From Lolliginicoccus lacisalsi (GTDB taxonomy: Bacteria > Actinomycetota > Actinomycetes > Mycobacteriales > Mycobacteriaceae), in assembly GCF_014841105.1 (NCBI RefSeq), contig NZ_JACYWE010000004.1, forward strand, positions 62,001 through 126,000: DNA of 64,000 bases. Reading direction: 5' to 3'. The position numbers were made by a program, and so were the translations under genes. The notes below the pieces were generated by a model. That model was not told where the DNA came from and did not search any database. It saw nothing but the letters and a program-made list of their open reading frames with translations. Below, in pieces: positions 60,152 to 64,000 of the stretch. Within the stretch, counting starts at the first letter, position 1; every line of letters begins with the position of its first letter.

Positions 60152-61360
60152 TCAGCGAATGCTGTGGCGCGCGAGCTCCATCGTGTCGGTGAGGAGCGCG
60201 GAGATCTCCTCGAGATCGGTGAGGAAGCCGTCGTGGCCCTTGTCGGTGTGCAGCACGCGCAGTTCCTTGCAGCCTGGCAGCTTCGCGGCGAGCTCTTCCT
60301 GCAGGCGCAGGGGGGAGAGCCGGTCGGAGGTGATGCCACCGACGATGGTGGGCACGGTGCAGGAGGCGAGCGCGGCATCGAGCCCGCCGCGACCGCGGCC
60401 GACGTCGTGGCTGCTGAGGGAGTCGCTGAGGATGACGTAGCTACCGGCGTCGAACCGGTGGACGAGCTTGCCGGCCTGGTGGTCGAGGTAGCTCTGGATG
60501 GAGTACTGGCCACCGTGGACGGGTGACACGTCGGTCTGCGCATCGTTGCCGAACCGGGTGTCGAGTTCTTCCTCGCCACGGTAGGTGAGGTGGGCGATGC
60601 GGCGTGCCACGCCCAGACCGTGCTCGGGAGAGCGACCGGTGCCGTAGTAATCGCCGCCCTGCCAGCCGGGGTCGGTCTTGATGGCGAGGATCTGCGCGGT
60701 CTGGGTGCCGATCTGATCGGCGGTGGCGCGGGCTCCGACGGCGAGGACGAGCGCGCTGGCGACGCGATCGGGGCAGGTGATGGCCCATTCGAGCGCGCGG
60801 GCACCGCCCATGGAGCCGCCCAGGACGGACGCGAAGCGCTCGATGCCGAGCAGGTCAGCGAGCTTGCGCTCGGCGTTGACCTGGTCGCGGATCGTCACTG
60901 CGGGGAAGCGTGATCCCCAGGGCTTGCCGTCGGGGGCGAGGGATCCGGGGCCGGTGCTGCCCTGGCAGCCGCCGACGGCATTGGCGGCGAGGACGCACCA
61001 TTCGTTGGTGTCGACGACCGCGCCGGGGCCGATGAGCCCGTCCCACCATCCCGGGGAGGGGTGGTGGGCATCGGCGGGACCGGTGACGTGGGAATCACCG
61101 GTGAGGGCGTGCAGCGCCAGGATGACGTTGTCGCCGCGGGGCGATACCTCGCCCCAGCGCTGCACCGCGAGGGTCACGTCGGGCAGCGTGGCACCGTTCT
61201 CCATGCGGAGCGGCCCGATGCGAACGTGGCCGACACTGCCGTCCGGCGCTGGCCAGAGGGCACTGCCTAGGCCACGCTCCGCCCCGCGCCCGGTGGAGGG
61301 CGCGGACGGGGCGCGGTTGCTGAGCGGCGGGTGAACGCTGCGCGGGTGGCTCACTCTCAA
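60152..61360 (-). CDS. metX: Homoserine O-acetyltransferase
   Basis: This 402-residue alpha/beta hydrolase-fold acyltransferase has the [13 protein letters not shown] segment near residue 82 and nucleophile elbow [13 protein letters not shown] near 181. The Asp-His end is [14 protein letters not shown] near 370. It acetylates homoserine with acetyl-CoA in the first step to methionine. It starts with TTG at 61360, overlapping the metY stop, or the GTG at 61354. It is transcribed with metY and so is under the SAM-IV leader. Confidence 0.95.
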
Positions 61361-62649
61361 GATGCCGCCGCTTCGAATCCGAGCTGGAGGTCGGCGATGA
61401 TGTCCTCGATGCCCTCGATGCCCACGGCGAGCCGCACGAGGCCGGGGGTGACGCCAGCGGAAAGCTGCTCCTCGGGAGACAGCTGCGCGTGCGTCGTTGA
61501 TGCGGGGTGGATGACGAGGGAGCGCACGTCACCGATGTTAGCGACATGGCTGTGGAGGACGAGCGCGTTGACGAACCGCTTGCCGGCCTCCACGCCGCCC
61601 TCGAGCTCGAAGGACAGCACCGCTCCGGGGCCCTTGGGCGCGAGCTTGCTGGCGCGCTCGTACCAGGGGGAAGCGGGCAGGCCGGAGTAGTGGACGGCGA
61701 GGACGTCGTCCCGGCTTGCGAGGTGTTCGGCTACGGCGCGAGCGTTCTGCACATGACGTTCAATGCGCAGGCTGAGGGTTTCTATTCCCTGCCCGATGAG
61801 GAACGCGTTGAACGGCGAGACCGCGGCACCGGTGTCGCGGAGCAGTGTCAGGCGGGCCTTGAGCGCGAAGGCGGGCGGGCCGAGGTCAGCGTAGACGAGG
61901 CCGTTGTAGGACGGGTCGGGAGTGGTGAACCCGGGGTACCGGCCGGACGTCCAATCGAAGGTGCCGCCGTCGACGATGACGCCCGCGACGGAGGTGCCGT
62001 GGCCGCCCAGGTACTTGGTGGCGGAGTGCACGACGATGTCAGCGCCGTGGGCGAGCGGCTGGATGAGATAGGGGGTGGCGACGGTGTTGTCGACGATCAG
62101 CGGGATCCCGTTGGCATGGGCGATGCCAGCGATGCCGTCGATGTCGAGGATCTCGCCCCTGGGGTTTGCGATCGTTTCCCCGAAGAACGCCTTGGTGTTG
62201 TCGCGCACGGCTGCCTGCCACTGGTCGAGATCGTCGGGGTCATCGACGAAGCTCACCGTGATGCCGAGCTTGGGCAGCGAGTAGTGGAACAGGTTGTAGG
62301 TGCCGCCATAGAGGCGCGGGCTGGAGACGATGTGGTCGCCAGCCTCGGCGAGGGTGAGGATCGCGTAGGTCTCGGCCGCCTGGCCGGAGGCGAGGAGCAG
62401 CGCGGCGGCACCGCCCTCGAGCGCGGCGATGCGCTGCTCGATCACGTCCTGGGTGGGGTTGATGATGCGCGTGTAGATATTGCCGGGCTCAGCGAGGCTG
62501 AACAGCGCCGCGGCGTGATCGGTGTCCCGGAAGGCGTACGAGGTGGTCTGGTAGATCGGGAGGGCGCGGGCGCCCGTTGTTGGATCGGGTGCCTGGCCGG
62601 CGTGGACCTGCTTGGTCTCGAAGCTCCAGCTTGCTGCTGCGTCGCTCAT
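61357..62649 (-). CDS. metY: O-acetylhomoserine sulfhydrylase
   Basis: This 430-residue PLP enzyme of the Cys/Met metabolism family begins [20 protein letters not shown]. The PLP Lys is in [17 protein letters not shown] (near residue 210), and [16 protein letters not shown] near 36 is conserved. It makes homocysteine from O-acetylhomoserine and sulfide. The ATG at 62649 has AGGAG upstream. A leader of over 380 bases before it contains a uORF and a SAM-IV riboswitch, so its expression should fall when SAM is plentiful. Confidence 0.95.
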
Positions 62650-62850
62650 GGCGTGATCTCCTGGGAGTCGTGTCGGGGCAGCATCCCGGCCTCGGACTTG
62701 CGGGGATGCGGGGGGACGGCACGAATGGTCCGCGTGGAGCGCGGGAACTCACCTCGACGGTGGCCGCGGGGCCGGGCCCTGGGGCTCGCGCGACGGGTGG
62801 TGTTCCGTGGGCGGGGCGCGGTCCGGCGCGCCCTCAGGCTCTAGCGGTGG

Positions 62851-62868
62851 CTAGCGACATCGACTCAT
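62851..62868 (-). CDS. Five-codon leader ORF (MSRCR) with Cys codon
   Basis: ATG-AGT-CGA-TGT-CGC-TAG lies 201 bases upstream of the metY start and is preceded by GGAGG four bases before the ATG at the right spacing. It encodes Met-Ser-Arg-Cys-Arg. Cysteine-codon leader ORFs are known to attenuate sulfur genes in mycobacteria, so this may sense charged tRNA-Cys. It is too short to be judged by homology. Confidence 0.55.
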   Translation of the reverse strand: MSRCR

Positions 62869-62902
62869 GGTGAACCTCCGTTGGTGACAATACCCGGTTC
62901 CC

Positions 62903-62922
62903 GGGCCCGTCCCAGCGGGCCC
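62903..62922 (-). promoter_or_regulatory. Small GC hairpin between riboswitch and uORF
   Basis: GGGCCCG and CGGGCCC pair perfectly with a 6-base loop. It lies between the riboswitch core and the uORF and may be part of its 3' stem or expression platform. Confidence 0.45.
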
Positions 62923-62939
62923 GCGCTTGCAGCGCGCGC

Positions 62940-63037
62940 GGTGCTTCGCGCGATGCCTGGTCATCACCCGGGGCACCCCACCGCGGAAGGAGGGTTGCCG
63001 AGCAGCCAGCCGGGGCTTGGCGCTGCTTCTCATGACC
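62940..63037 (-). ncRNA. SAM-IV riboswitch upstream of metY
   Basis: The minus-strand RNA starts GGTCATGAG (63037-63029) and closes with GATGACC (62965-62959), forming the P1 stem. Between them lie the conserved parts: CAAGCCCCGGCT, CGGCAACCCTCC, CCGCGGTGGGGTGCC and CCCGGGTGATGACC. These match the SAM-IV consensus known upstream of met genes in Actinobacteria. SAM binding should repress metY-metX. The exact 3' boundary is approximate because the extended pseudoknot stem was not fully traced. Confidence 0.88.
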
Positions 63038-63045
63038 TGTTCCCG

Positions 63046-63051
63046 ATAGTA
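63046..63051 (-). promoter_or_regulatory. Probable -10 of the metYX leader transcript
   Basis: TACTAT on the minus strand (63051-63046) lies about seven bases before the inferred start near 63040, just upstream of the riboswitch. No good -35 is found at 16-18 bases. Confidence 0.45.
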
Positions 63052-63348
63052 GCGCCACTGGCGCCAAAGCGGGAATCGGGGGAGGGGGCCGGTCCTCGCG
63101 CGGCGCGCCGGGGCTAGGCTTGGGCCCAGCGTGGCGGGCCTTCCTGGCATGCGGGGCCCGAAGCATCCCTCGAGGGCCTACTCCAACCAGTACGCTTGTC
63201 ATGTTTGCTGTGGGTGGGACGTGGACCCTCCCAGCACGATAGGTTTAATCCGATGAACCGTGATGCCTGAGCGCGGGCCGGATGCACTCACAAAGTGCGG
63301 CACGCGAGAGTCGCGCCAGGACCATTGCCGAGGAGGACGCGAACACCC

Positions 63349-64000
63349 ATGTCCAAGATCAAGGTTGAGGGCACTGTCGTAGAGCTCGATGGCGACGAGA
63401 TGACCCGTATCATCTGGCAGTTCATCAAGGACAAGCTGATCCATCCGTACCTCGATGTGAACCTCGAGTACTACGACCTCGGCATGGAGAATCGCGATGC
63501 CACGGATGACGAGGTCACCGTGGACGCCGCCAATGCGATCAAGAAGCACGGGGTAGGCGTCAAGTGCGCCACCATCACCCCGGACGAGGCGCGCATGGAG
63601 GAGTTCGGGCTCAAGAAGATGTGGCGGTCGCCCAACGGCACCATCCGCAACATCCTCGGGGGCACGATCTTTCGTGCCCCCATTATTATTTCCAACGTTC
63701 CGCGGCTCGTCCCGGGCTGGACGAAGCCGGTGGTCGTGGGGCGCCACGCGTTCGGCGACCAGTACCGCGCCACCGATTTCAAGGTGCACCAGGCCGGTAC
63801 CGTCACGCTGACCTTCACGCCCGAGGACGGCAGCGAGCCCATCGTGCACGAGGTCGTCAAGATGCCCGAGGACGGCGGCGTCGTGCTCGGCATGTACAAC
63901 TTCAAGAAGTCGATCCAGGATTTCGCGCGCGCCTCCCTGTCCTACGGGCTGCAGCAGAACTATCCGGTGTACCTGTCGACGAAGAACACGATCCTCAAGG
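63349..64000 (+). CDS. icd: NADP-dependent isocitrate dehydrogenase (3' partial)
   Basis: The first 217 residues start [44 protein letters not shown] lies near residue 82 and [20 protein letters not shown] near residues 90-110, the characteristic substrate-binding region. These are typical of the dimeric eukaryote-like (type II) NADP enzyme of Mycobacterium (Icd1). It converts isocitrate to 2-oxoglutarate in the TCA cycle. The ATG at 63349 has GAGGAGG at 63330-63336. The gene runs off the window's right edge. Placement after metY matches M. tuberculosis Rv3339c-Rv3341. Confidence 0.95.

Follow-up and report, generated by a model that had tools for sequence, protein, structure and literature searches.

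The 64,000 nt of DNA analysed here (the window) correspond to positions 62,001-126,000 of the forward strand of contig NZ_JACYWE010000004.1 of Lolliginicoccus lacisalsi (assembly GCF_014841105.1). The minus strand carries two overlapping sulfur-metabolism genes: metY (61357..62649), which encodes an O-acetylhomoserine/O-acetylserine sulfhydrylase and matches NF005872 with 835.8 bits against a cut-off of 703, and metX (60152..61360), a homoserine O-acetyltransferase gene identified by NF047917. Upstream of these genes and on the same strand, cmscan places a SAM-IV riboswitch aptamer (RF00634) at 62918..63037 with 111.1 bits against a gathering cut-off of 38, covering model positions 1-116, and this is the sole match at gathering within the 64-kb window. 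The preliminary description of this DNA had called a well-conserved SAM-IV core at this place and the covariance search bears it out. Just 5' of the aptamer a candidate -10 element, TACTAT (63046..63051, minus strand), is proposed from a motif match. A TAnnnT box stands in the same place ahead of SAM-IV in all four genus genomes searched (TACTAT in three, TATCAT in one) and is kept also in the leader L005, although the flanks differ there. A simple sigma-70 promoter scan of the leader region returned no promoter. A divergent second SAM-IV of 67 bits is present in the same genome (L002:1501-1614(-), contig C4), 30 nt before an unnamed ORF of 136 aa, and each of the four genus genomes has such a second site, scoring 63-74 bits.

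Between the aptamer and metY the leader holds several further elements, all on the minus strand. A platform hairpin, CGGGCCCG-CTGGGA-CGGGCCCG (62902..62923), overlaps the last bases of the aptamer and is a candidate anti-sequestor; it is predicted from the sequence and from local MFE folds of the four genus leaders, and the corresponding helix covaries in another leader group. Behind it lies TATTGT (62887..62892), by its motif a possible internal -10 element, and then a very short ORF (uORF) whose Shine-Dalgarno sequence (SD), GGAGG (62875..62879), is identical in the four genus leaders and is spaced 6 nt from the ATG. The uORF (62851..62868, stop included) reads ATG AGT CGA TGT CGC TAG and would encode MSRCR, with its single Cys codon, TGT, at 62859-62857, two codons before the stop. 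From the uORF stop to the metY ATG there are 201 nt, at the end of which CGACACGACTC (62665..62675), complementary in the leader MFE structure to uORF bases 3-8 and 10-14 (11 bp with one bulge), adjoins the SD of metY, AGGAG (62658..62662). A five-codon Met-Ser-Arg-Cys-Arg ORF with its own ribosome binding site, about 200 bases from metY, had been described previously and is read here in the same form; the tandem of riboswitch and uORF at this locus is real.

Taken alone, a five-codon ORF with one Cys codon is unremarkable. An SD-led uORF accompanies the aptamer, however, in 4/4 genus genomes searched, encoding MSRCR in three and MCRCC in L005, the most divergent of them. Ungapped comparison of the leaders L001 and L005 gave an identity of 15/18 positions within the uORF and 14/16 in the SD region, against 19/60 in the next 60 bases, and the three differences inside the ORF convert Ser2 and Arg5 to Cys in L005.

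Leaders from a wider range of actinomycetes were collected from 80 named metY loci and from SAM-IV places in 298 genomes of the order (225 with a match) and 296 genomes of the class (200 with a match), the two sets overlapping. The loci fetched are part of the SAM-IV places among the matches listed and do not amount to a census. With an HMM profile trained on 27 sites, 262 SAM-IV sites were located in 259 of 284 loci; the other 25 are metY loci without a detected site, one of which, L085, has no upstream sequence. A total of 143 sites precede metY (at least 50% identity), 82 of them in long leaders, in which metY starts at least 78 nt past the aptamer, and 61 in short ones. Three duplicate leaders were dropped and 22 of the 82 long leaders were removed as redundant, leaving 60.

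Most long leaders have a small ORF behind the aptamer, with predicted products such as MCCC.., MRCCCQ, MCRCR, MCMCP, MSCCRR, MCCRMCCRS, MRCCCRMKRG, MCCSICCC, MSCRMCCRH and MRASLHPLTRCCCR. By a loose criterion, applied without shuffle comparison, an SD-preceded ORF with at least one Cys is found in 72 of the 82 long leaders and in 51 of the 60 non-redundant ones. When at least two Cys are required, 37 of the 60 still have such an ORF, whereas 60 dinucleotide shuffles give 1.1 on average and never more than 5, and at least three Cys occur in 23/60 where the shuffles give 0.2; single uORFs have up to 6. Cys shows the highest excess among the 20 residues. Arg comes close to it in absolute excess (41 vs 5.5), and rises are seen also for Leu (21 vs 2.9) and Ser (18 vs 4.5). 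Overlapping reading frames within the same ORFs and the common Cys-Arg pattern may account for part of this. Ten of the 82 long leaders have no scored Cys uORF, among them L014, which carries one by eye; L210 has Tyr in place of Cys. Conservation of the uORF and its Cys codon in relatives had been named beforehand as the test on which the preliminary description could fall, and the two are conserved in the genus and recur in most of the long leaders. An ORF that arose by chance behind an ordinary SAM-IV riboswitch would be easy to picture from its five codons and from the 61 of 143 SAM-IV/metY leaders that are short and in which no such ORF was seen. The genus conservation and the enrichment of Cys-rich, SD-led uORFs over shuffled leaders place the window uORF beyond chance and make this explanation highly improbable.

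Codon choice gives a further pointer. The Cys codons of the 51 non-redundant uORFs comprise 93 TGT and 28 TGC, whereas 35 long ORFs of the window, chosen mechanically and unchecked as to gene status, contain 18 TGT and 162 TGC; as the two samples come from different genomes, this preference for TGT is not a matched test. The long ORFs were used because the Cys codons of metY itself are too few (7), and against these the difference was not significant (p=0.19). Were the uORF a general translation-coupling or mRNA-stabilising ORF, its Cys codons would have no part in sensing cysteine, and the single Cys codon in the window, the enrichment of Arg and the retention of the uORF with Tyr in L210 would all be accommodated. 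The frequency of uORFs with three or more Cys, some with six, and the use of TGT speak against such a role, which we regard as improbable, if less so than a chance ORF. Several features of individual uORFs may be recorded here. The L210 peptide, MRSYR, is an apparent homologue of an MRSCR uORF with Tyr for Cys and so represents a natural loss of the Cys codon. Ten of the 72 scored uORFs (L058, L080, L115, L185, L189, L215, L260, L270, L272 and L279) contain Cys-Arg-Met, with a Met codon after the Cys codons. In L009, L011, L032, L043 and L211 the uORF begins MCC(C/R)x and continues with a D(T/R)PR segment that hardly varies (CGATACGCCCCG in four of the five), followed by a variable tail; those of L032 and L211, which are of rhodococcal type, abut metY directly (TGA ATG).

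Riboswitch and uORF do not always occur together. Five of 119 SAM-IV sites not before metY are followed by an SD-preceded ORF with at least two Cys, in a set that is no matched control and is mainly of direct layout, since the gene often starts directly behind the aptamer, and in which the sequence past the aptamer is shorter than 120 nt at three sites. L239 and L262, two of the five, contain ...RHIDLQRVSSALCCC and ...RHVDLLRVSSALCRR, which follow the pattern of known leader peptides; of these, L239 precedes ABC-transporter genes and L262 an FMN reductase and an SsuA-like binding protein, and a third, L131, lies upstream of an SsuE-type FMN reductase. At L239 and L262 a leader peptide of the RH(V/I)DLxRVSSALC type is thus found just 3' of SAM-IV, which is the same combination before other genes. 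Conversely, an SD-preceded two-Cys ORF is found at 4 of the 25 metY loci without SAM-IV, that of L054 resembling a leader peptide, and by eye L065, L067, L077 and L088, metY loci in which no SAM-IV was found, have an HVDxxRVxSxAC peptide that the SD rule had missed. From the Cys leader ORFs at metY loci without SAM-IV and behind SAM-IV at other genes, the two appear to be separable modules that have been combined ahead of metY.

The position of the uORF bears on the target of the riboswitch. In the short leaders (n=61) metY starts at a median of 44 nt past the aptamer (quartiles 41-54), and in the long leaders the uORF starts at a median of 39 nt (quartiles 37-44), so that the platform appears to face the ribosome site of the uORF. 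In mycobacteria a near-identical platform (GGGTCCG..CGGGCCCC..., then CAGGGG or TGGAGG) precedes either metY or a uORF, depending on the species. A translational platform is likely for SAM-IV here. Further support comes from a group of 13 leaders (A4) chosen by eye for its platform, in which the hairpin overlapping the aptamer 3' end is 100% paired, with changes on both sides at 2 of 9 pairs, each in one sequence, and in which a competing helix formed by the same bases would cover the uORF SD (80.8% paired, sliding giving no more than 56.4%, and no pair altered in both strands). When a fourteenth leader with one broken pair, L075, was added later, the anti-sequestor helix was 99.2% paired and showed two-sided changes at three pairs, with 0/500 shuffles as high; for the competing helix the figures were 81.0% against at most 57.1% when slid, and a two-sided change at one pair, with 51/500 shuffles as high. 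These mutually exclusive helices are what a translational off-switch on the uORF would be expected to look like, with better support for the first helix than for the second.

In folding calculations, blocking the pseudoknot bases lowered the mean accessibility of the uORF SD only slightly, from 0.39 to 0.32, with a decrease in 35 of 62 uORFs, and that of the direct metY SD from 0.31 to 0.24, with a decrease in 23 of 47. Within the genus the uORF SD changed from 0.41 to 0.34 in L001 and in the opposite direction, from 0.21 to 0.51, in L005. Gating of the uORF by SAM is accordingly best inferred from the position of the uORF and from the one group chosen by eye, not from the window's genus. It may be asked whether the two inputs are instead independent, the Cys uORF sensing cysteine without being gated by the riboswitch, and SAM-IV reaching metY in another way or being bypassed by an internal promoter. 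TATTGT or TAATGT lies 24 nt before the uORF in all four genus genomes and could yield an mRNA free of the aptamer, and the little gating seen on folding in this genus, together with the four peptides at loci where no SAM-IV was found, which indicate that the Cys module can stand alone, would fit such independence. A TAnnnT at this distance is, however, missing from 45 of 47 non-redundant leaders, the two that have it both being from the window's genus, and neither the near coincidence of uORF start and direct metY start relative to the aptamer nor the exclusive helices on the uORF SD in the A4 group would be expected. Independent inputs are in our judgement unlikely, and the reading preferred here is that the riboswitch and the uORF act in series. 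The preliminary description had placed two layers of control on one RNA, and the comparison of leaders upholds this; it had also treated them as separate, whereas the position of the uORF suggests that the riboswitch acts on its ribosome site.

The step from uORF to metY may be less uniform. No intrinsic terminator was found in 62500-63400, which includes the stretch between uORF and metY, and transcription attenuation of the trp type was rejected on this ground. In the MFE structure of the window leader, uORF bases (GAGUCG and UGUCG) pair with CGACACGACUC beside the metY SD, and the interaction between the uORF and the metY ribosome binding site (RBS) scores 9.0 as against 1.2 +- 2.1 for shuffled uORFs. 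The 291-nt leader as a whole folds no better than shuffles (z -0.02), so that this helix is weak evidence, and a modelled stalled ribosome leaves the window metY SD unopened (accessibility 0.63 free and 0.61 stalled). By eye the pairing is kept in L003 and includes G-U in L004, while in L005 there are only six, shifted, pairs; a compensatory change between L001 and L005 was considered for this helix and rejected, as the partner in L005 is shifted by two columns. Comparable pairing occurs in some lineages; in the five leaders of one group (A6), 96% of cells are paired between uORF and RBS region, with no covariation. Across 49 leaders neither the opening of the metY SD by stalling (p=0.09; 9 open by more than 0.15 and 1 closes) nor uORF-RBS pairing above shuffles (p=0.30) was significant. 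A mismatched-pair test on 45 leaders gave p values from 0.014 to 0.40 across six window choices, the lowest being uncorrected, and in 21 leaders the mean pairing of the uORF was -15.8 with the pre-SD window and stronger, at -18.8, with mid-leader segments. A universal uORF-RBS helix was rejected on the results for the 49 leaders and the better pairing of mid-leader segments, and the latter comparison together with the stall model in the window disfavours a simple ribosome-site mechanism.

Termination by Rho offers another route, in which the uORF ribosome would cover or expose a C-rich stretch and metY would be controlled at the level of transcription elongation; this is compatible with a serial gate. 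Between uORF and metY the spacer is rich in C and poor in G (C/G 0.41/0.26 in 37 leaders, with C minus G above that of metY coding sequence of equal length, p=0.0017), and in the window it is 0.47/0.30, compared with 0.33/0.34 for 29 intergenic leaders of the window. Such a composition is as expected for Rho, and the failure to find an intrinsic terminator also counts for this route. Rho-dependent ends with uORFs have been reported for M. tuberculosis riboswitch leaders in the portion of PMC12810186 available to us, and a role for Rho in mycobacterial cys leaders has been suggested (PMC1262725, in excerpt). Against this, L032 and L211, whose uORFs abut metY, have no spacer on which Rho could act and are arranged as expected for coupling. 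We consider Rho a possible last step, short of an even chance, and the step from uORF to metY may differ between lineages.

Overall, the tandem is a recurrent actinomycete arrangement, and its simplest reading, on the comparative sequence evidence, is a gate on metY that takes SAM and cysteine in series. In such a leader, SAM-IV at the 5' end of the metY-metX mRNA would control initiation at the uORF via its translational platform, the ribosome translating the uORF would report the supply of cysteinyl-tRNA at the Cys codons, and the state of that ribosome would decide metY expression. With SAM high the uORF would not be entered and metY would be off; with SAM low and cysteine plentiful the ribosome would clear the uORF and metY would be mostly off; and with both low the ribosome would stall at the Cys codon or codons and metY would be released, through a freed metY ribosome site, coupling or Rho, probably depending on the lineage. 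That metY is on only when SAM and cysteinyl-tRNA are both low is, in our view, probable but by no means assured. The original proposal, that SAM-IV and a Cys-sensing uORF both control metY, is in this form supported by the comparison of leaders.

A more general statement can be made tentatively, at somewhat less than even confidence: that the arrangement is a modular serial AND gate in which a SAM-IV-regulated ribosome site is taken either by the gene or by a Cys-sensing uORF, that the module has been repeatedly gained and lost, that the rare codon TGT is preferred in it, and that it can be reduced to a sensor of five codons, one of them regulatory. In a quick phylogeny of 138 metY proteins, in which 40 of 135 inner branches have less than 80% support and L014 was counted by eye as a uORF carrier, the distinction between direct and uORF leaders requires 16 or more changes if the nine long leaders that lack a Cys uORF are set aside. 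All three leader classes together need 23 changes, a number as low as which was seen in 0/200 shuffles, and for the uORF group 9 changes are required even when only well-supported branches are considered. These counts suggest that the uORF module came and went repeatedly. If the serial reading is true, a wide range of actinomycetes would have, on a single mRNA, a riboswitch and an amino-acid-sensing leader peptide acting in series, with the end product SAM and cysteine as the other sulfur amino acid for inputs, and metY would join the cysteine-responsive leader network. A serial gate could also account for the distance between SAM-IV and metY at 82 of the 143 sites analysed, and it gives testable predictions in AND logic and in riboswitch-controlled uORF initiation.

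The components belong to two known kinds. The likeness to SAM-IV (RF00634) extends to aptamer sequence and structure and to location at the 5' end of the mRNA of a sulfur gene, the response to SAM being predicted here. SAM-IV has been placed before the O-acetylhomoserine sulfhydrylase gene of M. avium, with no uORF reported in the part of that paper seen (PMC3774663), whereas here a Cys uORF lies between aptamer and metY. Like the Cys leader peptides, the uORF is a conserved short ORF with a Cys codon before a sulfur gene and, as with other actinobacterial examples, there is no intrinsic terminator; the window ORF has one Cys only. The run of consecutive Cys codons is absent from MSRCR and present in MCRCC of L005 and in many relatives. 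Polycysteine sORFs that are leaderless are reportedly, from its title, the subject of Canestrari 2020. As opposed to the leaderless type, with the ORF at the mRNA 5' end, the window uORF is SD-led (62875-62879) and lies downstream of the riboswitch, and is probably not leaderless, with the internal TATTGT 24 nt upstream as a caveat. Excerpts of PMC9094748 and PMC13236596 cite Canestrari 2020 for Cys-responsive sORFs. Cys leader peptides were predicted for mycobacterial cys operons, without terminators and possibly with Rho, by Seliverstov 2005 (PMC1262725), which in the portion available reports that conserved RNA structure was not seen upstream of methionine operons. The repertoire of the organism does include such peptides, as MHLVQRRHIDFKRVCSCCCRSMPA before nirA-cysH (L289:961-1035(+), contig C1) matches NF042936, the Ms4527A family Cys-rich leader peptide, with 46.1 bits against a cut-off of 45; a second leader-like match, at C1:348777, falls below its cut-off (25.9 of 27 bits). 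None of six metY uORFs of 22-31 aa matches NCBIfam NF042934, NF042936 or NF042933 at E 10, MSRCR being below the 20-aa minimum of the search. The metY uORFs differ from these families in being without the HVDxxRVxSxxC motif and in extending down to five codons.

The combination was not found described in the literature searched: among the matches listed, and in the parts of them available, none joins SAM-IV with a Cys uORF, in agreement with the earlier statement that such a tandem is not known to be described for SAM-IV, although Canestrari 2020 or D'Halluin 2023 may mention it. Several other leaders combine two elements in comparable ways. The enterobacterial mgtA leader, with the proline-codon uORF mgtL, holds a sensing structure and a codon-sensing uORF in one leader. 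Like the metY leader it joins two inputs, but ligands and layout differ. In M. tuberculosis, Mbox-uORF2 and the B12 riboswitch with uPPE2 likewise consist of a riboswitch and a uORF before the main gene, and in the text seen of PMC12810186 and PMC11260477 these uORFs are not described as amino-acid sensors; citing earlier work, PMC12810186 states in the same portion that Rho-dependent termination and the translation of small peptides accompany most riboswitches of M. tuberculosis. In Xanthomonas, according to the part of PMC7270179 available, a SAM-I riboswitch also senses uncharged initiator tRNA, so that SAM and an amino-acid-linked signal are brought together on one met leader, as proposed here, with the difference that the second input is sensed by the riboswitch itself, whereas in the metY leader it would be read by a uORF.
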